Source: Cellvibrio sp. KY-YJ-3 | Lineage (GTDB): Bacteria; Pseudomonadota; Gammaproteobacteria; Pseudomonadales; Cellvibrionaceae | Direction of reading: 5' to 3' | DNA: 64,000 bases | Assembly: GCF_008806955.1 (NCBI RefSeq) | Contig: NZ_CP031727.1 | Coordinates: forward strand, 4,044,001-4,108,000 | Part shown: in pieces, positions 1 to 13,401 of the stretch | How positions within the stretch are numbered: the stretch's first letter is position 1 | Layout: the number at the start of each line of letters is the position of its first letter | Notes under the pieces: generated by a model | The model's database searches: none | The model's input: the letters and a program-made list of their open reading frames with translations, nothing else | Told to the model about the DNA's origin: nothing | Position numbers and translations under genes: made by a program

Positions 1-987
1 AACCAGGTTAACGTCAAAGCCTTTCGCGATATTGCCATCCCCCTGTGCTACTTCTGGCTGGGATGTAACATCGGGCGGCTGGAGCTGGCTGATCGCGCGC
101 TTAAAGTGGCGATTTGCATGGTCTTGGCGATGGGCATGTTTGAGTTGCTGCTACTTGATAGCTACACCCGCTGGTTTGATATTTTCAGCTACTACGTCAG
201 CATCGGCTCTATTGATCCTGCGATGGACTTTGTCCGGGAAGACCGCCTGCAAGCCAATGGTATGCGCCCCGAAGGTATAGGCCGTACCCTGCTCCCTGGC
301 CTGCTTGGCCCGCATCGGGTCTCCTCGGTTTTCCTCGAACCGGTATCGCTCGGCAACTTTGCCAGCCTTTGCGCCGCTTGGGGGCTTGCCCGCACACACT
401 GGCGCGATGGGATATTTTTTGTAGTGGCCGCGGTGATAATGATGGTGCTGTGCGATTCGCGATTCGCGCTGATGACCGTGAGTAGCTTTGTCGTGCTGCG
501 CCTGCTGGTGCACGGCAGCCTGCTTAATTTTTGTATCTTCGCCCCTATCGCCGCCATCCTCCTGCTCTTGGTAATTGGCTACACAACCCCCAACGAAACC
601 GGGCGGATTCTCAATGACGACTTGCAAGGGCGCCTCGCCTACAGCGGTTGGTCGCTACTGCAATTTGACGCCCTCAAACTACTCGGTATAGGTCACACCA
701 AGGTTTATTACGATGAGGGCTACGCCCATACCCTGGCCACGTTTGGGCTACCAATGGCGCTGGTGTTTTGGTGCAGCTTCTGGCTATTACCCATCAGCTC
801 CGCTACCAGCCAGCGTTTTCGGGCGATGGTATCGCTCTACATCGCGCTGATTCTCTGTATCAGTGGCTTTTCATTTTTTGCACTCAAAAGCGCCGGCTTA
901 CTCTGGTTTTTAGTGGGTTGCAGCCTGCAAAAGCCTGCACCTACTCCCGGGCAACCCAGCTATACCGGAGGAAAAGATGCCAGTTAG
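1..987 (+). CDS. O-antigen ligase/polymerase-like membrane protein, 5' truncated by the window edge
   Basis: The reading frame is open from base 1, so the start lies outside the window. The visible 328 residues are almost entirely hydrophobic helices, in the pattern of Wzy/ligase-type polysaccharide polymerases. It overlaps the next gene (gumH) by 11 bases, so the two are very probably co-transcribed and translationally coupled. In xanthan clusters the polymerase GumE sits in this position, so I infer that it polymerises lipid-linked repeat units at the periplasmic face of the inner membrane. I did not recognise GumE-specific residues; the assignment rests on topology and context. An O-antigen ligase of another type is the main alternative. 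Confidence 0.7.
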   Translation, partial: NQVNVKAFRDIAIPLCYFWLGCNIGRLELADRALKVAICMVLAMGMFELLLLDSYTRWFDIFSYYVSIGSIDPAMDFVREDRLQANGMRPEGIGRTLLPGLLGPHRVSSVFLEPVSLGNFASLCAAWGLARTHWRDGIFFVVAAVIMMVLCDSRFALMTVSSFVVLRLLVHGSLLNFCIFAPIAAILLLLVIGYTTPNETGRILNDDLQGRLAYSGWSLLQFDALKLLGIGHTKVYYDEGYAHTLATFGLPMALVFWCSFWLLPISSATSQRFRAMVSLYIALILCISGFSFFALKSAGLLWFLVGCSLQKPAPTPGQPSYTGGKDAS

Positions 988-2119
988 CTCCCCCATTAAA
1001 GTCACCCACATAGTGCGCCAATACCTGCCGTCCATTGGCGGGATGGAAGAAGTGGTGCGCAATATTGCTCGCCACCAGTTACATCAAGGCCAAGGCGCCA
1101 CGCGGATCATTACCCTCAATCGCCTGTTTCGCAACTCCAGTGAGTTGTTGCCCCAGCAAGAGACGATTGAGGGAATTGAAGTCATCCGCCTGCCCTACAT
1201 GGGTTCCAGCCGCTACCCCTTGTGCCCCGGCGTTTTTAAATACCTGAAGGATGCCGATGTAATACATGTGCATGGCGTGGACTTTTTTTACGACTTCCTC
1301 GCTGCCACCAAATGGCTACATCGTCGCCCGCTGGTGCTATCCACCCATGGAGGGTTCTTCCATACCCGCTTTGCCTCGCGCGCCAAACAGGCGTATTTCC
1401 ACAGTGTTACGCGCCTCTCCGCCAATGCTTACAACCGGGTGGTTGCCACCAGTGCCAATGACGGCGACTTGTTTGGACAAATCATGGATCAGCACAAACT
1501 GCAGGTCATTGAGAATGGGGTGGATGTGGAAAAGTATGCAGGTAGCGCCGCACCACAACTCACACCAACGCTGATGTATTTTGGCCGCTGGTCATCCAAT
1601 AAAGGGCTTATTCCTGCATTGGAATTGTTCGCTGAACTGCTGCGGCAGCGCCCCGAATGGCGCTTGATTATCGCCGGGCGCGAATACGATCACAGCCTCG
1701 CCGAGCTGCAAGCAGCCACGCAATCCTTGGGTATTAGCCATGCAGTGACCTTGGCCGCTAACCCCAGCGACGAGGAAATCAAACACCTGCTCAACCAAGC
1801 CAGCTATTTCATCTGCCTGTCGGATCACGAAGGTTTTGGTATAGCGCCGATAGAAGCAATGAGTGCCGGGCTCACACCCATTCTCAGTGCGATTCCACCC
1901 TTTCGGCGGCTGCATGGGGAATCTGGCTTGGGGTTCTGTTTTGAGCCGGCAACGCAACAGCACGCGGCAATCGCCCAGCTGCTGGAACTTCACGATCAAG
2001 GCGAGCACGCTTACCAGCAGCGCATGAAAGCCGCGCAGGCGTTTGCGATTCGCTATGCCTGGCCGCAAGTGGCTGATCGCTACCTCGCGCTTTACGATCA
2101 ATTGCGGAAGGCATCATGA
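977..2119 (+). CDS. gumH: GumH-type alpha-mannosyltransferase (GT4)
   Basis: A 380-residue GT-B glycosyltransferase that closely follows xanthan GumH, which adds alpha-mannose from GDP-mannose to the lipid-linked cellobiose on the cytoplasmic face. Visible signatures are VRQYLPSIGGMEEVV near the N terminus, HGVDFFYD, STHGGFFHT, VIENGVDVEKYAG, YFGRWSSNKGL and the C-terminal EGFGIAPIEAMSAG segment, which contains the GT4 E-x7-E motif near residue 285. The ATG has a GGAGG sequence a few bases upstream and lies inside the end of the polymerase gene. The 3' end overlaps the GH5 gene by ATGA. Length is normal for the family. The mannose specificity is inferred from similarity, not shown. Confidence 0.88.
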   Translation: MPVSSPIKVTHIVRQYLPSIGGMEEVVRNIARHQLHQGQGATRIITLNRLFRNSSELLPQQETIEGIEVIRLPYMGSSRYPLCPGVFKYLKDADVIHVHGVDFFYDFLAATKWLHRRPLVLSTHGGFFHTRFASRAKQAYFHSVTRLSANAYNRVVATSANDGDLFGQIMDQHKLQVIENGVDVEKYAGSAAPQLTPTLMYFGRWSSNKGLIPALELFAELLRQRPEWRLIIAGREYDHSLAELQAATQSLGISHAVTLAANPSDEEIKHLLNQASYFICLSDHEGFGIAPIEAMSAGLTPILSAIPPFRRLHGESGLGFCFEPATQQHAAIAQLLELHDQGEHAYQQRMKAAQAFAIRYAWPQVADRYLALYDQLRKAS

Positions 2120-3243
2120 ATATTCTCCGGTGTCCTCGCCCCCTGAAGCGCGCCCTGGGCTTATTGAGCCTGATGTTGGCGATGGTTGGCTCACCTTCAC
2201 AGGCGGGTTGTTTGGATCAAGCGCGGCTGACCGGCGTCAATCTCGCCGGGGCGGAGTTCAATACCAAAGCCTTGCCGGGCATCGTCTATAAAAATTACAC
2301 CTATCCCAGCACCGCGGAATTGAATTACATCGCCGCCCAGGGCGCCAATATGATTCGCCTGCCCTTTCGCTGGGAGCGCCTGCAACAAACAGTTAATGGC
2401 CCACTCGACCCGGCCGAGCTGGGGCGTTTGCACACTACAGTCAATAACGCCAGCGCCGCTGGGTTATGTGTACTGCTGGACGTACACAACTATGCCAAAT
2501 ACTACCAATACAAACTGGGCGACCCACTGCCTACACCTTCGCCCGAAGGCACCACCTTAACCACTATGTTTATCGCCTTTTGGCTGGCGCTGGCCGCCGA
2601 ATTTCCGGACGCCAATAAAGTCGCCTTCGGGTTGATGAACGAACCGGCCAATATTCCGTTGAACAGCTGGGCAGTTATCGCCAAACAAACCCTCGCCGAA
2701 CTGCGCGCGGCAGATGCGACCAATCTGGTCTTTGTCAGCGGTGGCCGCTGGAGTGGCCTGCACGATTGGTTTTCCGGCCTGGAATACAGCAACGCCAGCG
2801 AATTTAGTGACCTGCATGACCCGCTCAACCGCGCCATTATCGAAGTCCACCAGTACACCGACAGTGACTACTCAGGCACCCACACCACCAGCACCGGCAA
2901 GGGGTGCCGGCCCGCTGATCAATTTAATGCGAAATTCGAGCGCATTACCGAGTGGGCCAAAACCCATCAGCAAACGCTGTTTTTAGGGGAGTTTGGTGTG
3001 CCGCGCAGCAGCGAATGCCTGCTCACGCTCACTCGCTTTCTGGAGTTGATGGACAACAACACTTGGCGCGGATGGAGTTACTGGGCAGCTGGTAGTTGGT
3101 GGGGTAGCTACCCACTTGCCCTAAGCGGTGCTAACCAGGCACCTGCACCGCAATGGGAACCGTTGAAAGCCTTTTTCTTTCGCGACGGGGAAGATGAAAC
3201 CAGTCCACCGCAACCACCCGTTCCTCACCCAGCGAATCCCTAA
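2116..3243 (+). CDS. Secreted GH5 glycoside hydrolase (endoglucanase-like) in the exopolysaccharide operon
   Basis: 375 residues with an N-terminal signal peptide (arginine-rich start, hydrophobic core, SQA cleavage near residue 30). GH5 hallmarks are RLPFRWERLQ, LDVHNYAKYY, the acid/base glutamate in LMNEP (E176), HQY near residue 246 and the nucleophile in LGEFG (E292). The C terminus is a short Pro-rich tail. It starts within the stop of gumH (ATGA overlap), so it belongs to the polysaccharide operon. By analogy with cellulases placed in cellulose and other EPS operons, it may trim or release a beta-1,4-glucan-backboned polymer in the periplasm or outside the cell. Substrate is inferred; a general secreted cellulase or a mannanase of the same clan is possible. 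Confidence 0.87.
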   Translation: MNILRCPRPLKRALGLLSLMLAMVGSPSQAGCLDQARLTGVNLAGAEFNTKALPGIVYKNYTYPSTAELNYIAAQGANMIRLPFRWERLQQTVNGPLDPAELGRLHTTVNNASAAGLCVLLDVHNYAKYYQYKLGDPLPTPSPEGTTLTTMFIAFWLALAAEFPDANKVAFGLMNEPANIPLNSWAVIAKQTLAELRAADATNLVFVSGGRWSGLHDWFSGLEYSNASEFSDLHDPLNRAIIEVHQYTDSDYSGTHTTSTGKGCRPADQFNAKFERITEWAKTHQQTLFLGEFGVPRSSECLLTLTRFLELMDNNTWRGWSYWAAGSWWGSYPLALSGANQAPAPQWEPLKAFFFRDGEDETSPPQPPVPHPANP

Positions 3244-3287
3244 TGCTGTGAATGAAGGCCTTAATGCAGTAACCGAAGGAGAGCATC

Positions 3288-4454
3288 GTGACCGCACCAG
3301 AAATACTTACCCACACAGATGAATCATCCCTGACCAGCGCTACCCCGGCGCCGCAACAGAAATACCTGCTGCTCTCCGCGCACGACTATCGCTCGCCGCG
3401 CAAAGCGGGCATTCACTTTGTGGCGAGTGAATTAGCCAAAATGGGGCCGACACGCTTCTTCTCGCTGCGTTACAGCTTTTTATCGCGCTATAAACACGAC
3501 CCGCGTCTGTCGCTGGACGATCAGGCAAACAAAATAGTGAACCATCAGGGTGTTGATTGTTATTTGTGGAAAACCTTGATCCACCCTATTCGCATTCGCC
3601 CGTTTGAATCACTGATGTATCACCTTTACAGCTTCGGCTTTAACGCGGTGTTACGCCGTTGGATAAAAGAATCGGATGTGATTATTTTGGAGAGCGGTGT
3701 TGCACCGATTTTTTTCGATTTAATTAAAAAATTAAATGCGCGCGCAAAAATACTTTACCGCGCCTCCGATGCACTGGACACGATTGACGCCGCAGACTAT
3801 ATCCGCAACACCTTTGCCCGCATCGCCAAAGAGATAGACACCATAGTCATGCCCTCCAAAGCGCTGGCCGACTCCATGCCGTCAACGCATAATCTCGCAT
3901 TTGTACCGCAGGGAATTGATTATTCTGTTAATGAAAAGGCCAACCCATCGCCCTATGGCGAAGGCATACATGCGGTATCGGTTGGCTCCATGTTGTTTGA
4001 TCCACAATTTTTTATTCTTGCGGGCAAGCGCTTTCCACATATTCATTTTCATATTATTGGTTCCTGCCAACCGCGCCACCCGGAGTACGGTGAAAATATC
4101 AGCGTGTACGGTGAAATGCCGTTTGATAAAACCCTGCCCTACATCAAACACGCCACACTCGGTATTGCACCTTACGCCAGCGTGAACCTGCCCGCTTATT
4201 TACGCGATACCTCACTTAAACTCACGCAATATGAATTTTTTGGTTTACCCGCGATTTGCCCACATTTTATCGCCGCCGATTACCCCACCCGTTTTGGTTA
4301 TGACATTGGCGATGAAAATTCCATTGCTCAAGCGATTTCACGTGCACTAAACCCAGCGCAACCGCTCACCAAACGCACAGTACTGGATTGGGCGCAAGTG
4401 ACCGAACGCATGCTCGCGCCCAAAAAATTCAGCGACACAGAGATATTTGCATAA
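3288..4454 (+). CDS. gumK: GumK-type beta-glucuronosyltransferase (GT70)
   Basis: 388 residues, very similar in pattern to Xanthomonas GumK, the membrane-associated GT-B enzyme that adds glucuronic acid from UDP-GlcA to the mannose of the lipid-linked trisaccharide. Conserved stretches include LSAHDYRSPRKAGIHF, TRFFSLRYSFLSR, GVDCYLWKT, YRASDALDTI, the AVSVGSMLFDPQFF block, YIKHATLGIAPYAS and YEFFGLPAICP. The start is GTG, preceded by GAAGGAGA with good spacing; no nearer ATG exists. The stop overlaps the next ATG (TAATG). The 44-base gap after the GH5 gene is short, so it is probably in the same operon. Confidence 0.92.
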   Translation: MTAPEILTHTDESSLTSATPAPQQKYLLLSAHDYRSPRKAGIHFVASELAKMGPTRFFSLRYSFLSRYKHDPRLSLDDQANKIVNHQGVDCYLWKTLIHPIRIRPFESLMYHLYSFGFNAVLRRWIKESDVIILESGVAPIFFDLIKKLNARAKILYRASDALDTIDAADYIRNTFARIAKEIDTIVMPSKALADSMPSTHNLAFVPQGIDYSVNEKANPSPYGEGIHAVSVGSMLFDPQFFILAGKRFPHIHFHIIGSCQPRHPEYGENISVYGEMPFDKTLPYIKHATLGIAPYASVNLPAYLRDTSLKLTQYEFFGLPAICPHFIAADYPTRFGYDIGDENSIAQAISRALNPAQPLTKRTVLDWAQVTERMLAPKKFSDTEIFA

Positions 4455-5233
4455 TGACTACAGACACAATTAATGCAATTTCACCGGATGACATTATCCC
4501 CCTTGGCGGATTCCCTATAATGCGCACCACCAGCGCCGCATTAATTCCACTTTTGCAAGAAAAAATGCAGCAGCAACAAATCGCTTTATTATTTGCCAAC
4601 ACTAATTTTATTGTGAAATGCCAAGCCGAAAAGACCGCTCTGGCAGGCAGTGACACAATTATTGTCAACGACGGTATTGGGCTGGACATTGCCACGTGGC
4701 TCGTGCATCGCCGTCGCTTTATTGAAAATTTAAATGGTACTGATTTCACCCCGCAGTTTTTACAACAACTGGGCGCAAGTGCACGAGTTTTTTTGCTCGG
4801 CGCCAAACCCGGTATTGCACAGCGCGCCGCGCAAACACTGACAACTCAATATCAGGTTAAGGTAGTCGGTGTACGCAACGGTTACGACGAAGCGCGCAAC
4901 AGCGAAGAACTTATTGCCGCGATTAATGCCAGCAATGCGAATGTAGTGTTGGTCGCCATGGGCAACCCTTATCAAGAACAATGGATTTTAAAACATCGCC
5001 GCCAATTAAATGCGCCAGTGTTGATGGGGGTTGGCGCGCTACTGGATTTTCTGGCAGGCGACAAAACCCGCGCGCCCGCGTTGGTGCAACGTTTGCGATT
5101 GGAATGGTTTTATCGCTTATGCCTTGAACCTTCGCGTTTATTGCGGCGCTACACAGTGGATATCGTACAGTTCCTCTTACTCTGCTTGCGCAGCGGTAAT
5201 CGCATAGATCACCTGCGTCACTCGGAAGGATAA
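4454..5233 (+). CDS. gumM: GumM-type WecG/TagA/CpsF glycosyltransferase
   Basis: 259 residues from the ATG that overlaps the gumK stop by one base; an upstream in-frame extension into gumK is unlikely to be used. The WecG/TagA/CpsF fold is shown by FANTNFIVKC, NDGIGLDIA, LNGTDFTPQF, VFLLGAKPG, VLVAMGNPYQEQW and the C-terminal RLRLEWFYRLCLEPSRLLRRY. In xanthan synthesis GumM adds the second, beta-1,4-linked glucose to glucose-PP-polyprenol, and its membrane association depends on the C-terminal region. Together with gumD it would build the cellobiose backbone unit. Substrate is inferred from the cluster context. Confidence 0.87.
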   Translation: MTTDTINAISPDDIIPLGGFPIMRTTSAALIPLLQEKMQQQQIALLFANTNFIVKCQAEKTALAGSDTIIVNDGIGLDIATWLVHRRRFIENLNGTDFTPQFLQQLGASARVFLLGAKPGIAQRAAQTLTTQYQVKVVGVRNGYDEARNSEELIAAINASNANVVLVAMGNPYQEQWILKHRRQLNAPVLMGVGALLDFLAGDKTRAPALVQRLRLEWFYRLCLEPSRLLRRYTVDIVQFLLLCLRSGNRIDHLRHSEG

Positions 5234-5237
5234 GACT

Positions 5238-6320
5238 ATGAAAATTTTTGCGGCACCCGCCTTTAGCAATGAAAAGGTTAACCCCTACAACGCATTGCTC
5301 TATCGCGAAGTACAACAACTCAATGCAAACGTTGAAGAATATCGCCACAGCAAAGCCCTGCGCACGCACTCTGACATAGTGCATTTTCATTGGCCGGACG
5401 GTGATATTAATCGCCCCAGCCTTGGCAAAAGCATACAGCGCATGCTGCTCCTGGCAGTCACTGTGTGTGCATTAAAATTAAAAGGTACCAAAATCGTATG
5501 GACAGTGCACAACACAGCACCTCACGATGCGCGCCGCCCGCGGTTATCAAACGCATTTATGCAGTGGTTTGCACGGCGCTGCGACGGTTTTATTTTTATG
5601 AGCGAAGCTAATCGCGCAGCGTTTTATCAGTTGTACAAAACCTCACCCACCAGCCAATACACGATCATTCCCCACGGTCACTATCGCGGCTGTTATCCCC
5701 CGGCGATTGATCAACAGGTTGCAAAAACCCAATTGGGATTAGATCCAGCCAAAAAAGTATTATTGTTTGTCGGGATGATAAAACCCTACAAAAATATCGA
5801 CGGCTTAATGCAAGCATTTAATCAAGCTGAACTTGCGGATTATCAATTGGTTGTAGCAGGCACTGCAGACACGGCACCTACCGAGTTGCGTAGCAGCATG
5901 GAAACGCTAAAAAATGCCAACACCCATTTATTCCTGCGTTTTATTCCCGACAGTGAATTGGCACTGTTTATGAGCGCAGCCGATGTAGTGATTTTGCCCT
6001 ACAAAGCGATTCTCAATTCCGGGGCATTATTATTGGCGCTCTCTTACAACCGCCCGGTGATTGCACCGCATATGGGTGCCGTTGCCGAACTGCAAAAAAA
6101 ACTGGGGTTGCATTGGATTTACGGTTACGCCAGTGACTTGACACCGGCAAGCCTGCAACATGCTTTACTTGCCCTCGAGCACAGCAGCCGCCCGCAAGTA
6201 TGCCCGCTAGATAATTACAACTGGGATAAACTCGCGGCACAAACTCTGGATTTTTATGGTCAACTAGGCACATCGGCACACACAGCGGCCGCCTTGTCTG
6301 ATTCCAAAAAAATACCCTGA
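5238..6320 (+). CDS. gumI: GumI-like beta-mannosyltransferase (GT94-like GT-B)
   Basis: 360 residues; an AAGGA sequence precedes the ATG, five bases after the gumM stop. It resembles xanthan GumI, which adds the terminal beta-mannose: NPYNALLYREVQ near the N terminus, VHFHWPDG, WTVHNTAPHD, IPHGHYRG, a GMIKPYKNI block and a VILPYKAILNSGALLLALS block near residues 245-265. No signal peptide or membrane span is seen, fitting a peripheral cytoplasmic enzyme. Length is normal. The assignment to GumI rather than a generic GT4 is moderately confident and rests on the HGHYR and NSG(A/T)LLLALS motifs plus position in a gum-type operon. Confidence 0.75.
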   Translation: MKIFAAPAFSNEKVNPYNALLYREVQQLNANVEEYRHSKALRTHSDIVHFHWPDGDINRPSLGKSIQRMLLLAVTVCALKLKGTKIVWTVHNTAPHDARRPRLSNAFMQWFARRCDGFIFMSEANRAAFYQLYKTSPTSQYTIIPHGHYRGCYPPAIDQQVAKTQLGLDPAKKVLLFVGMIKPYKNIDGLMQAFNQAELADYQLVVAGTADTAPTELRSSMETLKNANTHLFLRFIPDSELALFMSAADVVILPYKAILNSGALLLALSYNRPVIAPHMGAVAELQKKLGLHWIYGYASDLTPASLQHALLALEHSSRPQVCPLDNYNWDKLAAQTLDFYGQLGTSAHTAAALSDSKKIP

Positions 6321-6353
6321 CTCCAATAGTGTTTGTATGAGCATTCAAAACCT

Positions 6354-7571
6354 ATGAAAAATCTCGCGCGTCATATTTACCGCCGCATTCGTGCGCAGCT
6401 ATTGCAGCGTATGATTCCCAAAAGCGACGCGCCGCTCCCCCTTAACATCGCCGAGTTGCGCATAGAAGTGATTGGGTTTTTCCACAGTATTTCCGGCATT
6501 GGCGAATCTGCCCGCTTGTGTGCGCAACAATTAGCGGCAGACGGTTATCAGGTGCAATGCACCAGTGTAGAAAAGTTTTTTCACAAACCCGAAGAACTAG
6601 CATGGGACTGGCCGGCACAAAAGCCTAATCCCAGCGGGCCAACTGCTATTAATTGTCGAATCTATCACTTGAACCCACCCATGTTGCCGCCGGTGATTTT
6701 CCAAATGGGAATCGCCAATTTTAAAAAAACCTACAACATCGGTTATTGGGCATGGGAGTTGGAGGCCATACCCAACGAATGGGTTAATGCTATTCGCTAT
6801 ATGAATGCGATTATCACACCCTCGCGTTTTACGACTGATGTTATCCAGCGCTACACAGATTACCCGGTACTGACGGCGACCCACCCGGTTACGCGCGGTG
6901 AAGCTACCCAAGGTATGCGTGGCAAATTAAACATCCCCGAGCAGGCATTTTTGGTATCCAGCATTTTTAGTTTTGGCAGCGCGATGGAACGCAAGAATCC
7001 CCTCGCATTAGTCGCTGCGTTTAAACAAGCATTTGCTCATACGCCCGATGCTTATTTAGTGCTAAAAGCGAATACCGGTGGCGATTCACCTGAAAAGCAG
7101 CAACTGCTTGATGCTATCGCCGGGCACCCCAATATCTGTTTAATCGATCAACATTGGAGTCGCGCCGATGTGCTCGGTTTAATTCAGAGTTCCGATCTCT
7201 ATGCGTCACTGCACCGCTCGGAAGGTTTTGGTTTAACCCTTGCCGAAGCGATGTTGTTAGACACCCCCGTACTCGCAACCGCTTGGTCAGGGAATATGGA
7301 TTTTTGTACGGCAGAAAATAGTTTTTTAGTGCCCTGCACACCCATTGCGGTTAACTCCAAGCACCCGGAGTTTCAGGAAGTTGATAACATCACTTGGGCC
7401 GATGCCGACAGTCAAGCAGCAACACAAATGCTGGGCGACATTTATCGCGATCGCACATTACTCGCCAAGAGAAAATCCTGCTGTGCACAGCAAATGCAAA
7501 ACTGTATCGATAGCAACAAATATGAACATGCCTTGCAGCAGTTAGTTAACGCACGAATCAATCCTCTATGA
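6354..7571 (+). CDS. Additional GT4-family glycosyltransferase of the exopolysaccharide cluster
   Basis: 405 residues from the ATG at 6354; a TTG at 6333 would add seven residues, and no strong ribosome site separates the two. The protein is a GT-B transferase: FFHSISGIGESARL glycine-rich N-terminal loop, NIGYWAWELEAIPNEW, SIFSFGSAMERKNPLAL and the donor-site segment SEGFGLTLAEAMLLDTPVLAT with the E-x7-E motif. It has no counterpart among the five xanthan transferases already found here, so I infer that it adds a sixth sugar or an alternative side-chain residue. It overlaps the flippase gene by ATGA. Donor and acceptor are unknown. Confidence 0.82.
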   Translation: MKNLARHIYRRIRAQLLQRMIPKSDAPLPLNIAELRIEVIGFFHSISGIGESARLCAQQLAADGYQVQCTSVEKFFHKPEELAWDWPAQKPNPSGPTAINCRIYHLNPPMLPPVIFQMGIANFKKTYNIGYWAWELEAIPNEWVNAIRYMNAIITPSRFTTDVIQRYTDYPVLTATHPVTRGEATQGMRGKLNIPEQAFLVSSIFSFGSAMERKNPLALVAAFKQAFAHTPDAYLVLKANTGGDSPEKQQLLDAIAGHPNICLIDQHWSRADVLGLIQSSDLYASLHRSEGFGLTLAEAMLLDTPVLATAWSGNMDFCTAENSFLVPCTPIAVNSKHPEFQEVDNITWADADSQAATQMLGDIYRDRTLLAKRKSCCAQQMQNCIDSNKYEHALQQLVNARINPL

Positions 7572-9058
7572 GCCTGAAAAAGAATTTTGGTAAAAGCAGT
7601 GTGTGGATGAGTACCGCTGCGAGCGGTAATAGCCTCATCAGCCTGGTGATTTTTATTATTCTTTCCCGCTTGTTGGCGCCGGAAGAAATTGGCTTGGTCG
7701 CCTTTGCATTAATTGTGGTTGAGTTGGGTAGAGTCATTGTCAATGCCGGCTTCTCACAAGCCATCGTGCGCCACCCCGAATGGGATGAACACTACGCAGC
7801 CACTGGTTTTTATCTCAACCTGTTATTGGCATTGGTGGTTACTGCGGTTGCATTTTGGGTAGTAGCGCCACTGGTCGCTTTTTACTACGACCCACGCGCC
7901 GAATTGTTAGTGCAGGTACTTTCCGTGATCTTTTTTTTGGAGGGCGCCAAAGCAGTACATGAAGGCAAACTCAAACGAGAGTTTAATTTTCGTGCGATTG
8001 CGCTGCGCACTGTCATTGCAAGCTTGGTATCCGGCATCGCGGGGGTAGCACTGGCCTTTTTGGGCTACGGTGTTTGGGCGTTGGTATGGCAACAATTAAT
8101 TAACCAGATATTCATGACCCTGCTCACCTGGAAAAGCGCACACTGGTTTCCCAGTTTGCATTTTTCTTTCCTACACACACGATCACTATTAGGTTTTTCT
8201 GCGCCGCTGACACTTGCACAACTGGTGAGTAATCTCGCGAGTAAAATATACGAATTATTGATAGGCCTCTTAATTGGCCCCGCTGCATTAGGGTTTTTCC
8301 GCGTGGGTGGGCGCGTGCTATTTATCATGCAAGAAATTGTAATAAAGCCTTTCGAGCAGGCGCTGCTACCGGCATTATCGCGATTGAACGAGCGAGACGC
8401 ACGCGCGCAGGCCACAATGCGCGTAATGCGCATCAGTGCTTATTTTACTTTCCCGATTTTTTTTGGCGCTGCGGCGCTAGGGCCTGAGTTTATTGAACTC
8501 GCCTTTACCGATAAATGGGCACAAAGCGGCCAGGTAATGACCATGTTGGCACTGGGGATTGCCCCCATGGTAATTAGTGCACAAGTGAATTCCGCACTGA
8601 CCGCGAGCGGCCATACGAACTACGTTATGCTACTGGCAGTTATCACATTTGTACTGAATTGCCTGCTCGGTTTTCTGCTAGTACCTTTCGGTATCGTAGT
8701 GGCTGCGGCGGGTTATGCATTGCGCGCGTATCTGAGCATTATTTTCAATATGTTATTTTTCAAAAACATATTTAAGGTGGGCGTACTGCAACAGTTGCGC
8801 ATTATCGCGCCCACGTTCACCGCAGCCTTAATCATGTTTACGCTAGTACAACTAACAAAATTTGTGTTGCCTGCTGACTGGGCGCTTGGTGTACGTTTAC
8901 TGCTGCTCGCCGGTTTTGGTGGGCTGATTTATATTTTTATCATGTCGTGCATTTTTCGCGAGGAAACGAAACACTTTTTAGGCGAGAGTGCGGCCATGGC
9001 GCCCGCCAAAGCAAAACCTGCTATAGAGTTTTTGCAGCGGTTGTTACGCCTGGCCTAA
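7568..9058 (+). CDS. gumJ: GumJ-like polysaccharide flippase (MOP/PST family)
   Basis: 496 residues with about 12-14 hydrophobic helices and the typical N terminus of lipopolysaccharide/EPS translocases (LISLVIFIILSRLLAPEEIG, then a GFSQAIVRHPEWDE loop). In xanthan synthesis GumJ is proposed to flip the completed polyprenyl-PP-oligosaccharide across the inner membrane. The gene overlaps the preceding glycosyltransferase (ATGA) and is the last + strand gene of the locus; the opposing gumL stop lies 17 bases away, leaving no room for a separate terminator. Family assignment is strong, and the GumJ label is by context. Confidence 0.85.
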   Translation: MSLKKNFGKSSVWMSTAASGNSLISLVIFIILSRLLAPEEIGLVAFALIVVELGRVIVNAGFSQAIVRHPEWDEHYAATGFYLNLLLALVVTAVAFWVVAPLVAFYYDPRAELLVQVLSVIFFLEGAKAVHEGKLKREFNFRAIALRTVIASLVSGIAGVALAFLGYGVWALVWQQLINQIFMTLLTWKSAHWFPSLHFSFLHTRSLLGFSAPLTLAQLVSNLASKIYELLIGLLIGPAALGFFRVGGRVLFIMQEIVIKPFEQALLPALSRLNERDARAQATMRVMRISAYFTFPIFFGAAALGPEFIELAFTDKWAQSGQVMTMLALGIAPMVISAQVNSALTASGHTNYVMLLAVITFVLNCLLGFLLVPFGIVVAAAGYALRAYLSIIFNMLFFKNIFKVGVLQQLRIIAPTFTAALIMFTLVQLTKFVLPADWALGVRLLLLAGFGGLIYIFIMSCIFREETKHFLGESAAMAPAKAKPAIEFLQRLLRLA

Positions 9059-9075
9059 ATCGATAGCTAAAAAAT

Positions 9076-9906
9076 TTAATTCCATAAGTGGAGCGGAAAC
9101 GCATCCAACAGCGATTGATGATCAAAACGCAACCCCGGCATGCCGCCCATTTCTTGACCTTCAGCAATTGAATTGGCAAATTGAAATTCAGATTCCAACC
9201 GCCCTGAGCCAAAATAATAGTCTTTGTATTTAAACAAGTCTTCGGTTTGCGATAAGCGCACATAGCGCGCTGGAATACCATATGCCTCCGCAATGACCAA
9301 CCCGTGGAGTGAACTCGCCAGTACCAATTTAGCTTCCAGAATTTGTTCAATCACGCGGTTCCACCCTTGCAAAGGTGAAATAACATTCGGTGTCTTGGGT
9401 GGCAATATAGATAGATCGTGTAGATTGGGTACAAATACATAATCGCGGCAGGGATTGGGCGTAAAACGTCCTTTAAATAAATGCGGCATCAGCAGTGCAG
9501 GATCACCATAAACTTTCGGTACGGTAAAACCACGGCTGCGCAAAAACTCACGGGTCAATGGGCCACGCACTGCATGCAGGTTCAAGCGTTTGGATTTGAA
9601 CATGATCTCGGGTACTTTGCCATTCCAACCTGTACCCCAGATATGGTCATCGTTTGCACTGTATTGCAAGATTGAACCAATGGCTAACAAGCGCGCACTT
9701 TTTGAAACTTCCTGATCCAGACTTAATCCCTGTAGTGCCAACAATTGGCGTGTAACAATTTCTGAAAGATGGTCACCAAAATTTACCCGCCCGTCACCTG
9801 GCGCCCAGTTATATAAATCCACATAAGGAAAAGGTAAACGCGGTTTCAGTTCAGTAGGGGTTTCCCAATAAGCAGCCAGACGTTTAAACATGAATATTCC
9901 ACTCAT
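9076..9906 (-). CDS. gumL: GumL-type ketal pyruvate transferase
   Basis: 276 residues of the polysaccharide pyruvyl transferase family (PF04230). Matches to GumL include the NFGDHLSEIV motif, LLAIGSILQYS, IWGTGWNGK, HAVRGPLTREFLRSRGF, KVYGDPALLMPH, LVLASSLHGLVIAEAYGIPA, KYKDYYFGSGR and a C-terminal AFPLHLWN. The reaction is transfer of pyruvate from PEP to the terminal mannose of the repeat unit, giving an acidic 4,6-ketal. It is transcribed opposite to the glycosyltransferases, in a - strand group with the EpsL-like barrel and gumD. The first ATG (9906) is used; a second one five codons in has a slightly better upstream GAGTGGA. Confidence 0.87.
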   Translation of the reverse strand: MSGIFMFKRLAAYWETPTELKPRLPFPYVDLYNWAPGDGRVNFGDHLSEIVTRQLLALQGLSLDQEVSKSARLLAIGSILQYSANDDHIWGTGWNGKVPEIMFKSKRLNLHAVRGPLTREFLRSRGFTVPKVYGDPALLMPHLFKGRFTPNPCRDYVFVPNLHDLSILPPKTPNVISPLQGWNRVIEQILEAKLVLASSLHGLVIAEAYGIPARYVRLSQTEDLFKYKDYYFGSGRLESEFQFANSIAEGQEMGGMPGLRFDHQSLLDAFPLHLWN

Positions 9907-9932
9907 ATAAGTTAAGCGTTAAAAAATTATTT

Positions 9933-11081
9933 TTAAAATACCAGCGCGACGCCAAGGCTTGCCTGAGCATAATCATAATCGCGATACTCTAATGGCGATT
10001 CGCGATCCACCCACTGGCTACTGAGGCGAAACTTGAGCATTTCAGAGAATTGATAAGTAAGTGCGATAGGGCTGAGTGTCGTGATGTGTTCGTCGCGGGC
10101 GGGTTCGGTTAACCGCTGCACATAAGCCTGAGTGCTGTAACCCGCCGCCATGGAGAGCGACCATTTAGCCGACGGCTCCCACCCCAGGCTAATTCTGCTG
10201 GCGCGAACATCAGCCGGCGAGTCAGAGGTTTCACCCACCGCGGGTTCGCTTTGGCTGTAACTCAAGGACAGTGTGAGTTTTTCACTCACGGCCCAATCCA
10301 AATCCACTACGGCTTGGGTACCTGTACCGGCATTAATCTCCCCTTCGCGCTTGAAGCGCCCCAGGGTAAATCCCAGTTGCGTTTTGCGGGTCAACGCCCA
10401 GGAACTTTCCACTTCCAGTTGGCGATAATCAAAATCCAATGAGGTAAGCGCATCAAGCAAAGGGTTTTCATAAACTCGCTCACCTTCACGCAAACGCAAA
10501 CTCAAAAACGATTTATTTGCCGTAGTGTAAGTACTGGCAACAAACCATTCATCATCATCAAAATCCAGACTTTCGCGCAGCTCATTGGAATGCGTTTGTG
10601 CTATTTGCCGCGCGCCAATAGTAAATCCAAGGCGCTGCCCTACCCCCATAGTCAATTGGCCCGCAAAGTTATCGCGCGCAACAACATCTTTATCGGCAAA
10701 TTCCAAGCGATCCACCGCATAGGCATCACGCACCCAGGTAAAATCTGTTTTTACCCGTGTGCTCCAGTCACTGCGCCAACGTGCATTGCCTTCATAAAAA
10801 CTTACGTCCAAATCATCACGCTCAGCATAAGCATAATGGTTGCCACTTACACCCAATGAAAAATCCTGCTTACTCAGGCGCTCATTAAGTGCAACTGAAA
10901 TAACCGAGTGAGTGTAATGCTCGGAATCCACATATGCACTGCGCGCAAAATTGCTGTCCCAGTGTTCATTCGCGCCCAACGACAAAGTAAAGCGATCCAT
11001 CGCATAAGCAGTTGAGTTGGTCAGCCCAGCGAACAGAATTAACGCCATACCCCACTTAACGCTGACAGGTATGGTGTTCAT
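9933..11081 (-). CDS. EpsL-like outer-membrane beta-barrel of exopolysaccharide biosynthesis
   Basis: 382 residues from the ATG at 11081, chosen because it gives a clean signal peptide (MNTIPVSVKW, hydrophobic core, STAYA cleavage); an upstream in-frame ATG at 11123 would bury it. The mature protein is made of alternating, aromatic-rich strands ending in a terminal phenylalanine (GVALVF), as in outer-membrane barrels. The order and composition resemble EpsL-type proteins of exosortase-linked EPS loci. Inferred role: passage or anchoring of the polymer at the outer membrane, a task done in Xanthomonas by GumB with other factors. I see no close link to GumB itself. Confidence 0.72.
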   Translation of the reverse strand: MNTIPVSVKWGMALILFAGLTNSTAYAMDRFTLSLGANEHWDSNFARSAYVDSEHYTHSVISVALNERLSKQDFSLGVSGNHYAYAERDDLDVSFYEGNARWRSDWSTRVKTDFTWVRDAYAVDRLEFADKDVVARDNFAGQLTMGVGQRLGFTIGARQIAQTHSNELRESLDFDDDEWFVASTYTTANKSFLSLRLREGERVYENPLLDALTSLDFDYRQLEVESSWALTRKTQLGFTLGRFKREGEINAGTGTQAVVDLDWAVSEKLTLSLSYSQSEPAVGETSDSPADVRASRISLGWEPSAKWSLSMAAGYSTQAYVQRLTEPARDEHITTLSPIALTYQFSEMLKFRLSSQWVDRESPLEYRDYDYAQASLGVALVF

Positions 11082-11112
11082 TTTTTTCGCGCAGCATTTA
11101 ATTTCATCTGGA

Positions 11113-12570
11113 TTAATAAACATTCTCGCCAACAAAACCTTTAAAGATTGTTTTCCATAAAATTTTTATGTCCAACAAAATTGACCAGTTACGAATATAT
11201 TCCAAGTCATACGCGATGCGTCCGGACATCTTATCCAGCGTTTCCGTTTCACCACGAAAACCATTCACCTGCGCCAATCCAGTAATGCCTGGTTTTACTT
11301 TATGGCGCAACATGTAGCCTTTGATTTGCCCGCGATAAAATTCATTGTGCGCAACGGCGTGGGGGCGCGGGCCTACCAGCGACATACTGCCGGACAATAC
11401 ATTGAATAGCTGGGGCAATTCATCAAGCGACGTGCGGCGTAAAAAATTGCCAAACGGCGTGATGCGTGGATCGGCGCGTTTGGCTTGGGCAACACTATTG
11501 CCATCCTCACACACGGTCATGGAGCGAAATTTCCACACTTTTATTTTTTCACCCCCCATGCCATAACGCGTTTGTTTAAAAAACACGGGACCAGGCGATG
11601 TCACTTTCACACCAATCGCCACGGCTAACATAGGGATTGCCAATAAAAGTAAAATTCCAGCACCCAACACCACATCTTCCAAACGCTTCACCCAACCGTT
11701 ATCAACCAGTGGCGAATCGTAAATACTCAGTGCGGGAATGCCTTGTAAACACGTGAGGCGCGAATGCAACAAATCAAAACTAAATACATCGGGTATAACA
11801 TAGGGCGATACTGTAGTATCCGCCAAGCGATCAATCACAGTACGCATGCGCATTTCAGCGCGCATTGGTAAACCGACAAAAACCATATCCAATTTGCCAT
11901 CATGGGCATCTTGATAAAGCTGCTCAAGCCCACCTTTTACTTCAATATTGTCGCCAATCAAACGCCGCCCCACTTCATGGGAGGGTGAGCGATCGTCGTA
12001 AAAGCCAATCACTTTGTAGCCCAACCATGGCATTACTTTCATGGAATTGATTAACCGTAAACCCAATTCATTGGCACCGACAATCGCTACACGGCGCGGC
12101 TCGGTTGGATGAGAGCGCAATTTGGCAAGCAACAAACGCCGCCCAATATGCATACCCGTCATTAATACCGGCGTTGCAACCAACCAGCAGACAAACGCCA
12201 ATAATTCCATGGATTTAAATGGATAAATCACTAGCGCCGCAAGAATGATAAAAATAGCCGTTACCAGCCAGGCAAATAATATTCGACCAGCCAAATCCAG
12301 CATGGAATGACCGCGCCATAAATAATAAACTTCATTGCCCTCGGCAAAAAAACCAAAAACAATAACGGCGGTAATTGCAAAGGTAGTGTAAAGATTTGTC
12401 CACTCAAGCCCTAGCATGTTAAGCCCGAGCCAAAGTATGGATACGATCAGCGCGCTATCAATCGCACGAAATAGCGCGAGGATTTTTGAATGGTGAAGCC
12501 GTATAACCGGCGGTTCATTTGATAAGGTTACAGGGCTAACAAGCGCCCGATTGACCGATAGATTGCTCAT
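11113..12570 (-). CDS. gumD: GumD-type undecaprenyl-phosphate glucose phosphotransferase
   Basis: 485 residues from an ATG with GGAGG just upstream; an in-frame TTG five codons earlier lies inside that ribosome site. The N-terminal half has hydrophobic spans and a CoA-binding-like segment (RVAIVGANELGLRLI). The C-terminal bacterial sugar transferase domain shows VKVTSPGPVFFKQTRYG, KVWKFRSM, RRTSLDELPQLFNVL, MSLVGPRPHAVAHN and KPGITGLAQVNGFRGET. It starts the repeat unit by moving glucose-1-phosphate onto undecaprenyl phosphate at the inner membrane. It is the first gene of the - strand group and overlaps the long form of the EpsL-like ORF. Confidence 0.92.
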   Translation of the reverse strand: MSNLSVNRALVSPVTLSNEPPVIRLHHSKILALFRAIDSALIVSILWLGLNMLGLEWTNLYTTFAITAVIVFGFFAEGNEVYYLWRGHSMLDLAGRILFAWLVTAIFIILAALVIYPFKSMELLAFVCWLVATPVLMTGMHIGRRLLLAKLRSHPTEPRRVAIVGANELGLRLINSMKVMPWLGYKVIGFYDDRSPSHEVGRRLIGDNIEVKGGLEQLYQDAHDGKLDMVFVGLPMRAEMRMRTVIDRLADTTVSPYVIPDVFSFDLLHSRLTCLQGIPALSIYDSPLVDNGWVKRLEDVVLGAGILLLLAIPMLAVAIGVKVTSPGPVFFKQTRYGMGGEKIKVWKFRSMTVCEDGNSVAQAKRADPRITPFGNFLRRTSLDELPQLFNVLSGSMSLVGPRPHAVAHNEFYRGQIKGYMLRHKVKPGITGLAQVNGFRGETETLDKMSGRIAYDLEYIRNWSILLDIKILWKTIFKGFVGENVY

Positions 12571-12894
12571 ACTCCCTCCACGCAATGTACTTCATCATGC
12601 CATCAGCATTTGTTTACTAGCAGGATATAGAAGGCATTAATCAGGCCATAAAGAATGCAACATCACGATTACGTGACGAAGTTTTAAAAAAATCGATATT
12701 TGTCGCCAAATCAACTAAAATTGACGCCAAAAGCAGCAATCATCAATCCGCTTTTGATAAAAATATTTGTAATTTTTATAATTTTTCTGCACCAGCAAAA
12801 CGCACTGTTTTTTTAAAAGCACTGAACCAACGCAAAAACATTTTTCTTTATGAACACTAACTGAATAATCAATCTAAAAATTAATTAAGACGCC
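12571..12894. promoter_or_regulatory. AT-rich divergent intergenic region between gumD and ygjP
   Basis: About 320 bases without a gene, strongly AT-rich, with several T runs on the + strand. It must hold the promoters of the leftward gumD group and the rightward ygjP gene. I see no convincing long palindrome or known operator, and no tRNA-like fold. Confidence 0.5.
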
Positions 12895-13401
12895 ATGACA
12901 GCACTGAAATATTTAACCGGCTACTCCGCCGATACACTGCAAAAAGTGAAAACGCTTATTGAAGAGAAAAAGCTGGCTGAGGTATTACTAAAACGCTACC
13001 CAAATGTTCATCAAGTGCGCACTGATGGTGCGCTATATCAATATACGCAACAAATTAAAGCGGATTTTATGGGCAAGACCCAACCTTTGAACCGGGTCAG
13101 TTATGACAGCAAAATAAAAGTGATCCAACATGCACTGGGGCAACACCACTACATTAGCCGTATTCACGGTGGGAAACTTAAAACCGTGAACGAGATCAAA
13201 ATTGCCAGTGTATTCAGAACCGCACCAGAAGCATTTTTAAAAATGATTGTCGTACATGAGCTGGCACATTTTAAAGAGAAGGAGCACAACAAAGCGTTTT
13301 ATCAACTCTGCTGCCATATGGAACCACAGTATCACCAATATGAATTTGATCTGCGTCTGTACTTAACCCAACTGGATTTATTTGGGGATATATATACCTA
13401 A
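12895..13401 (+). CDS. ygjP: YgjP-like metallopeptidase-fold protein
   Basis: 168 residues, essentially the length of E. coli YgjP and matching it throughout: RYPNVHQVRTDGALYQYTQ, the KASVFR-type strand, then the zinc-binding helix VVHELAHFKEKEHNKAFY (HExxH with a further conserved His) and CCHMEPQYHQYEFD. It lacks a signal peptide and membrane spans, so it is cytoplasmic. The family (YgjP/WLM-like, formerly DUF45) has a zincin fold; a nucleotide pyrophosphatase activity has been reported for the E. coli protein, so the true substrate should be treated as open. The gap of 46 bases to the MscS-type gene suggests possible co-transcription. Confidence 0.88.
   Translation: MTALKYLTGYSADTLQKVKTLIEEKKLAEVLLKRYPNVHQVRTDGALYQYTQQIKADFMGKTQPLNRVSYDSKIKVIQHALGQHHYISRIHGGKLKTVNEIKIASVFRTAPEAFLKMIVVHELAHFKEKEHNKAFYQLCCHMEPQYHQYEFDLRLYLTQLDLFGDIYT

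Follow-up and report, generated by a model that had tools for sequence, protein, structure and literature searches.

Xanthan, an industrial polymer and food thickener, comes from the plant-pathogen genus Xanthomonas. Does the genus Cellvibrio encode a polymer of the same type, and if so, is its locus a rearranged Xanthomonas gum operon? The question is raised by a gene cluster at the left end of a 64,000-nucleotide stretch of the Cellvibrio sp. KY-YJ-3 genome (the window; positions 4044001–4108000 of a single 4.49 Mb contig). An earlier note on this DNA had reported, from a genome it called Cellvibrio-like (the genus is indeed Cellvibrio), homologues of GumD, GumM, GumH, GumK and GumI together with a GumJ-like flippase, a GumL and a probable polymerase. 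Our comparisons bear this out: judged by sequence, the window contains orthologues of all five xanthan transferases, and a xanthan-type repeat unit is well supported. We consider it probable that the locus specifies a Wzx/Wzy xanthan-type repeat pathway built on an export and control chassis resembling those of methanolan and acetan.

The reference for these assignments was a Xanthomonas-type gum locus (L096), whose genes were named by their position in the known gumB-to-gumM order and whose GumK is 94% identical to X. campestris GumK (2HY7). At E values up to 0.01, the Gum proteins encoded in the window and in the 10 kb to its left (L003, genome 4034001–4044000; position 10000 of L003 directly precedes window position 1) each match solely the positionally corresponding gene of the reference. 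Identity is 52% for GumH, 51% for GumK, 45% for GumM, 40% for GumL, 37% for GumD and 28% (over 332 residues) for GumI; it is 28% between flippase and GumJ, 26% between polymerase and GumE, 27% for GumB and 26% for GumC. That GumI, the flippase and the polymerase reach no more than 26–28% weighs against the pathway proposed here. An additional glycosyltransferase (GTx), a glycoside hydrolase of family 5 (GH5), an outer-membrane barrel and a kinase-like protein find no match in the reference at the same threshold.

Profile matches and retained residues point the same way. The gumD orthologue, a predicted undecaprenyl-phosphate glucose phosphotransferase (11113–12585, minus strand), scores 516 bits against TIGR03023 (cut-off 411); gumM, encoding a WecG-type transferase (4454–5233, plus strand), matches PF03808 at 1e-55 (measured on a longer open reading frame, ORF, from 4388). 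The product of gumH (977–2119, plus) is a GT4 alpha-mannosyltransferase by family and retains all six binding and catalytic residues named for GumH in a preprint (His118, Asn174, Arg198, Lys203, Glu279 and Glu287; passages of PMC13104830), as do 15 of 15 readable Cellvibrio loci. The gumK orthologue (3288–4454, plus), a GT70 glucuronosyltransferase, matches PF22059 at 5e-59 and 2HY7 at 1.7e-124; the equivalent of its catalytic residue, Asp157 (according to passages of PMC12768416), is kept here and in 15 of 15 readable Cellvibrio loci. The GT94-type beta-mannosyltransferase GumI (5238–6320, plus) keeps the equivalents of Trp68, Asn108 and His112, the three residues named in the preprint, as do 10 of 10 Cellvibrio loci with gumI; the preprint passages propose that Asn108, a position held by Asp elsewhere among GT94 enzymes, accompanies an acidic acceptor (PMC13104830). 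A tree built from 32 chosen sequences of GumI, GumH and GTx places the 20 labelled GumI together on one side with support of 99/98, with GumH and GTx as the sole outgroup, so that other GT94 relatives are possible there; one Oxalicibacterium sequence (L062), on a branch of 4.07, is probably not GumI. In these comparisons GumK and GumI both fall with the corresponding Xanthomonas proteins, the outcome that the earlier note had set as a check. One of three GumK copies compared from Glaciimonas immobilis (L067, contig 5, 9935–11116) has His at the catalytic site and is possibly a changed paralogue; the other copies have Asp157.

The locus is larger than the span of 1–12570 first given to it. It occupies genome positions 4040444 to 4056585, beginning 3.6 kb to the left of the window and ending at window position 12585. 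The left-hand sequence, in which the earlier note advised looking for gumB and gumC, contains both; the kinase-like gene lies there too, as does the 5' portion of the polymerase gene. On the plus strand the series reads gumB-like outer-membrane polysaccharide export (OPX) gene, gumC-like co-polymerase, kinase-like gene, wzy, gumH, GH5, gumK, gumM, gumI, GTx and wzx; gumD, the barrel gene and gumL lie on the minus strand, convergent to the rest. The GumE-like polymerase gene wzy (plus) starts at L003:9662 and continues to window position 987, and the GumJ-like flippase gene wzx, of the MOP family (7568–9058, plus), matches PF13440 at 9e-74.

In content, the locus shares with the Xanthomonas gum operon counterparts of GumD, GumM, GumH, GumK, GumI, GumL, GumJ, GumE, GumB and GumC. 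It differs, as had been noted, in order and strands from gumBCDEFGHIJKLM and in acetylases: no GumF or GumG gene was seen inside the cluster, and the genome's eight PF01757 matches are at other places. The GH5, the kinase-like protein, the barrel and GTx are unmatched in the Xanthomonas-type reference. The earlier note had recorded the extra glycosyltransferase and the barrel, both of which are present, and had passed over the GH5 gene at 2116–3243, between gumH and gumK. Precursor genes lie outside the locus: an intact GMP-PMI ORF of 487 residues (the TGA within the profile match is the gene's own terminal stop), a phosphomannomutase-like ORF recognised by eye and two sugar-nucleotide dehydrogenases stand together at about 0.67–0.68 Mb. 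An Rfam scan of L003 and the window returned nothing above gathering scores, promoter and terminator scans found no more than in shuffled sequence, and a search for the XrtB exosortase gave no match, its control likewise giving none. Some 1.7 kb to the left of gumB lies a small ORF (L003:4342–4698, plus) whose start resembles that of a lipoprotein and leads into Gly-X-X repeats of collagen type.

What kind of export and control apparatus accompanies these transferases? The gumB-like OPX protein (L003:6444–7361, plus) has a Poly_export domain and two SLBB domains and matches the EpsE model through its end. It is thereby longer than the GumB of the Xanthomonas-type reference, which covers only model positions 1–162 of 239. 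On alignment, the OPX protein lacks a C-terminal membrane helix, and its relatives terminate in ESLF or similar. Counted from its first start codon the ORF has 305 residues, and a start farther in would shorten it; among 13 other Cellvibrio loci whose gumB is complete, 12 encode proteins of 265–278 residues and one encodes 320. Passages of PMC9601211 give a limit of 280 residues for the OPX protein of composite OPX/barrel translocons.

The second component would be an EpsL/BBP2-like outer-membrane protein and probable export porin (9933–11081, minus; the start codon is uncertain and the ORF reaches 11135), whose gene is present, not adjoining gumB, in all 16 of the Cellvibrio loci fetched. The AlphaFold model (pLDDT 88) is a barrel of 18 strands, and structures of AlgE have the top TM-scores (0.55–0.58) among the 50 Foldseek matches listed. 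This pattern of OPX protein and 18-strand barrel suggests a translocon of composite type in which the two may pair.

Methanolan-type NCBIfam models are the best for all four proteins of the export and control set, EpsE for the OPX protein, EpsF for the co-polymerase, EpsG for the kinase-like protein and EpsL (TIGR03014) for the barrel, the transferases being of xanthan type. Several observations weigh against the proposed export chassis. All four scores lie below the equivalog cut-offs (224 bits against 263, 415 against 423, 250 against 314 and 101 against 275, respectively); the AlgE TM-scores are modest, and OprD-type porins and TonB receptors appear among the same matches with similar or better E-values. 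Moreover, GumB and GumC of the Xanthomonas-type reference also best match EpsE (93 bits) and EpsF (199 bits), so the OPX protein and co-polymerase alone do not mark a different chassis. It is the EpsG-like and EpsL-like proteins that have no match in the Xanthomonas-type locus.

The co-polymerase (gumC/EpsF-like; L003:7389–8732, plus) has Wzz and GNVR domains and no kinase domain. Its EpsG-like partner, encoded directly downstream (L003:8772–9662, plus), appears, by sequence and structural model, to be a tyrosine pseudokinase that carries a fused MshEN domain of the cyclic di-GMP (c-di-GMP) type. The N-terminal region matches the MshEN model NF053729 at 44.5 bits (cut-off 38), with MshE (5htl) and PilF found by profile comparison, and it keeps the arrangement of two 24-residue motifs with a 5-residue spacer. 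The remainder takes a tyrosine-kinase fold by Foldseek in the model of a same-genus relative (L043), which was used because the strain's own gene lies outside the window. Across 17 chosen sequences the Walker A motif GK(S/T) is absent from all 17, the last 25 residues contain no Tyr or a single one, and the Walker A' Asp is kept in all 17.

The same protein could be read as an active tyrosine kinase or ATPase whose N-terminal domain is a structural adaptor that does not bind c-di-GMP. The Walker A' Asp accords with this reading, as does a Walker B-like Asp in some betaproteobacterial sequences, and so do deviations in both 24-residue repeats: the strain's own protein departs from the published consensus at motif 1 position 11 (Lys) and motif 2 position 6 (Ala), and deviation extends to the first Arg of motif 1 (4 of 17 sequences), a residue often replaced. 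Also unfavourable to a c-di-GMP-type domain are a score of 33.4, under the cut-off, for the Hydrogenophilales relative (L065) and the presence of kinases only, with no MshE-type structure, among the 50 Foldseek matches listed for the model. Against an active kinase stand the lack of GK(S/T) throughout and the Tyr-poor tail; against a mere adaptor stand the conserved 24-5-24 spacing and the case of PilF GSPII-B, which according to passages of PMC11731258 binds c-di-GMP tightly despite Lys and Leu at the first motif positions. We regard the active kinase with a non-binding adaptor as doubtful, though it retains appreciable weight.

For the pseudokinase, there are partial precedents. In Myxococcus a pseudokinase has been proposed as scaffold for a kinase-less co-polymerase (passages of PMC12004946), and the EPS (exopolysaccharide) system there, with EpsY, EpsX and EcpK, combines, like the Cellvibrio locus, a helix-less OPX protein, an 18-strand barrel and a separate pseudokinase, the OPX protein there being short (passages of PMC9601211, PMC9603273 and PMC12004946). 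EcpK lacks all Walker motifs in these accounts, whereas the Cellvibrio protein keeps the Walker A' Asp and fuses the MshEN domain, and its OPX partner has two SLBB domains. A passage of PMC5013675 notes MshEN in EPS synthesis of Methylobacillus, where the protein concerned is presumably EpsG. Each piece of this control set is thus known. At the level of titles and passages, the literature yielded no description of a c-di-GMP-type domain fused to a pseudokinase in a xanthan-type locus.

What, then, is the polymer? The genes that follow gumM leave some latitude. The gumL-type ketal pyruvyltransferase (9076–9906, minus) matches PF04230 at 2e-12, and GTx (6333–7571, plus), a GT4-type transferase, matches PF00534 at 5e-11; the PDB relatives of GTx are weak and it has no known donor, a point against the proposed pathway. 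With this extra transferase the repeat need not be a plain pentasaccharide. Among the 16 other Cellvibrio loci the post-gumM block differs: gumI is found in 10, GTx in 4, one or other of two kinds of pyruvyl transferase in 9, and GT25 in 5, while 1 locus has a DUF707-like protein that scores slightly below the Pfam cut-off. In this last locus (L031, 3965–6895) the barrel and wzx genes enclose a pyruvyl transferase of the 400-residue type, the DUF707-like protein and a GT25. In [Pseudomonas] boreopolis (L059) two tandem gumL-like genes (11199–12062 and 12200–13027) stand between gumK and gumM.

Presence of gumI and of a pyruvyl transferase go together. Over 17 loci, the window included, 10 of 11 with gumI also have a pyruvyl transferase, against 0 of 6 without gumI (Fisher p 0.0006), where pyruvyl transferases were counted at the level of the locus, those of 400 residues in L024, L031 and L039 being entered by hand, and gumI was sought across whole genomes. 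No real gumI was found elsewhere in the six genomes without one at the locus (two of them drafts, 94 and 97% complete); weak transferase matches occur in two. The association amounts to 4 changes on the tree, and a sign test on independent pairs gives 0.25, so that a dependence of gumL on gumI is suggestive only. The rule fails outside Cellvibrio, since in Oxalicibacterium a gumL (52–54%) stands beside a transferase merely 23–26% like GumI. Within Cellvibrio the co-occurrence is suggestive, fitting pyruvylation of a mannose added by GumI.

An alternative with some claim to attention is an acetan-like polymer, in which the Glc-Glc-Man-GlcA core would bear, instead of one pyruvylated mannose, a different tail determined by GTx and related genes, GumI using another donor or acceptor. 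The variable block just described and the 28% identity of GumI speak for it, as do the acetan and Kozakia clusters of acetic acid bacteria, which share the GumD/M/H/K core and an endoglucanase with the Cellvibrio locus, the acetan cluster also having a beta-barrel porin and an OPX protein (passages of PMC5050591 and PMC6528568). The acetan cluster, in the same passages, contains the tail transferases AceP, AceQ and AceR and, inside it, ugd and mannose-phosphate genes; the Cellvibrio locus has GumI and GumL instead, with precursor genes elsewhere in the genome. Since the Cellvibrio GumI retains the Trp, Asn and His of Xanthomonas GumI and groups with it, and pyruvyl transferases track gumI, we judge the acetan-like polymer unlikely and prefer a xanthan-type repeat.

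The GH5 gene (2116–3243, plus) raises a further question, for its product is a predicted cellulase (PF00150 at 2e-43; PDB cellulase 5hos at 1.6e-69) with both catalytic Glu residues kept and, judged by eye, a start resembling a signal peptide. Its start codon overlaps the gumH stop (ATGA) and the gumM ATG overlaps the gumK stop (TAATG); with these overlaps, GH5 is very likely co-transcribed with its neighbours. In all 15 of the Cellvibrio loci that were fetched and readable, gumH and gumK flank it directly, and it has the same place in Marinobacter (L049, L050), Ectothiorhodospiraceae (L077) and Hydrogenophilales (L065); in L080 it stands apart from gumK on the opposite strand. Both catalytic Glu are kept in 15 of 15 Cellvibrio sequences and 12 of 12 others. 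The fifteen GH5 proteins compared from other GumK loci are 40–61% identical. The genome contains 14 PF00150 matches, 12 of them above cut-off; among the 13 further ones, the 10 GH5 proteins compared are at best 23% identical over 195 residues or 30% over 56. Because the GH5 proteins of GumK loci are alike and those compared from the rest of the genome only weakly similar, it is likely that the enzyme is dedicated to the EPS pathway. Some loci count against this: of three Glaciimonas loci one (L056) yielded no GH5, and none was seen in the distant GumK loci L069–L073 and L076. That the enzyme is instead an ordinary plant-cell-wall cellulase, placed by chance among the EPS genes of a cellulolytic genus, as the number of PF00150 matches and its best PDB relatives (cellulases) might suggest, is very improbable and was rejected as the main account, given the distance of the 10 other GH5 proteins compared from the genome (as pairwise identities rather than a tree) and the relatives that stand between these gum genes or close to them in Marinobacter, Oxalicibacterium, Aromatoleum, Glaciimonas (2 of 3 loci) and Hydrogenophilales, none of which is known to degrade cellulose.

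In xanthan, the products of GumD and GumM lead to a beta-1,4-glucan backbone. As such a backbone is expected here also, the GH5 enzyme may cut it. A parallel exists in a Sphingomonas EPS cluster, where deletion of a GH16 gene with a signal sequence gives rugose colonies (passages of PMC11340318).

How widely is the locus distributed, and where does it stand relative to Xanthomonas? GumK is found in 17 of 21 Cellvibrio genomes, our own counted; two of the four without it are listed as 100% complete. PF22059 occurs in 4 of 293 genomes of a sample of the order (two weakly, at 34–35 bits), in 2 of 369 of a sample of the class and in none of 12 listed same-family genomes from other genera. The order gumB, gumC, kinase-like gene, wzy, gumH, GH5, gumK, gumM is constant in 14 of the 16 fetched Cellvibrio loci, those long enough to show it (L027 and L039 start inside the series, and gumB of L032 is cut by the contig start). 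An identical gumB-to-gumM order is found in Marinobacter BGYM27 and in a Marinobacter metagenome-assembled genome. A scan of genome contigs with two peptide patterns returned no locus with Xanthomonas in its title and is not a census. A Sinorhizobium sp. RAC02 megaplasmid (L041) has a GumK homologue at 11974–13152; no other cluster-like protein was seen in the 25 kb taken.

A tree of GumH, GumK and GumM was built from the window and 31 chosen loci (L097 was omitted, being from the same genome as L060). Cellvibrio forms one clade of 7 loci (support 100/100), and loci of the Xanthomonadaceae type (Lysobacteraceae in NCBI naming) form another, separate clade of 11 (100/99). Branches between the larger groups are uncertain, and two long branches meet. 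Recent transfer from Xanthomonas was considered and is not favoured by this separation. GH5 occurs in 19 of the 32 loci, in Cellvibrio, Marinobacter, Ectothiorhodospiraceae, Rhodocyclaceae, Oxalobacteraceae, Hydrogenophilales and Caulobacterales (fewest changes 3), and the kinase-like gene in 17 of 32 (fewest changes 2). Neither was found in any of the 11 loci of the Xanthomonadaceae type, nor GH5 in L056 and L075; such absences are not firm because some loci are cut by contig ends. With its own clade, the EpsG-like and EpsL-like proteins and the GH5, the view of the locus as a rearranged Xanthomonas gum locus is the less supported part of the earlier interpretation; the xanthan-type repeat unit at its centre is well supported.

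Computation supports the gene identities, the kept residues, the conservation and the predicted folds of the barrel and the kinase-like domain. The pathway we envisage would begin with transfer of glucose-1-phosphate to undecaprenyl phosphate by GumD, after which GumM would add glucose, GumH mannose, GumK glucuronate and GumI the terminal mannose, with sugars and linkages as presumed from the orthologues; GumL would pyruvylate that mannose, and GTx would probably add a sixth sugar. Wzx would then flip the unit and Wzy polymerise it under the gumC-like co-polymerase, with the MshEN pseudokinase possibly gating polymerisation through c-di-GMP binding rather than tyrosine phosphorylation. The polymer may leave by way of the presumably short periplasmic OPX protein and the 18-strand barrel, and GH5, in the periplasm or passing through it, might cut the backbone of faulty, unsubstituted or stalled chains.

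The endoglucanase and barrel have acetan-type precedents. In the literature searched, outside which most subscription papers fell, xanthan, Cellvibrio and gumK never occur together, nor do GT70 and Cellvibrio. Passages of PMC8941931 place scv loci in 28 genera, Cellvibrionales included, with no gumK or xanthan in them, and passages of PMC7232360 contain no xanthan or gum wording. We tentatively suggest, with a confidence slightly short of even, that the locus represents a second, old xanthan-type lineage outside the Xanthomonadaceae, with gating by an MshEN pseudokinase, backbone editing by GH5 and, in Cellvibrio, reshuffling of the last transferases. If this is true, the genus would hold a natural series of xanthan variants, in which strains without gumI should stop at glucuronate or add another sugar. 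A soil genus with the xanthan core transferases and natural variation in the tail would be a source of enzymes and polymers to test. It would also offer a clean case for asking if c-di-GMP can act as a switch on pseudokinases, and for what reason Wzx/Wzy loci retain an endoglucanase able to cut their own backbone.

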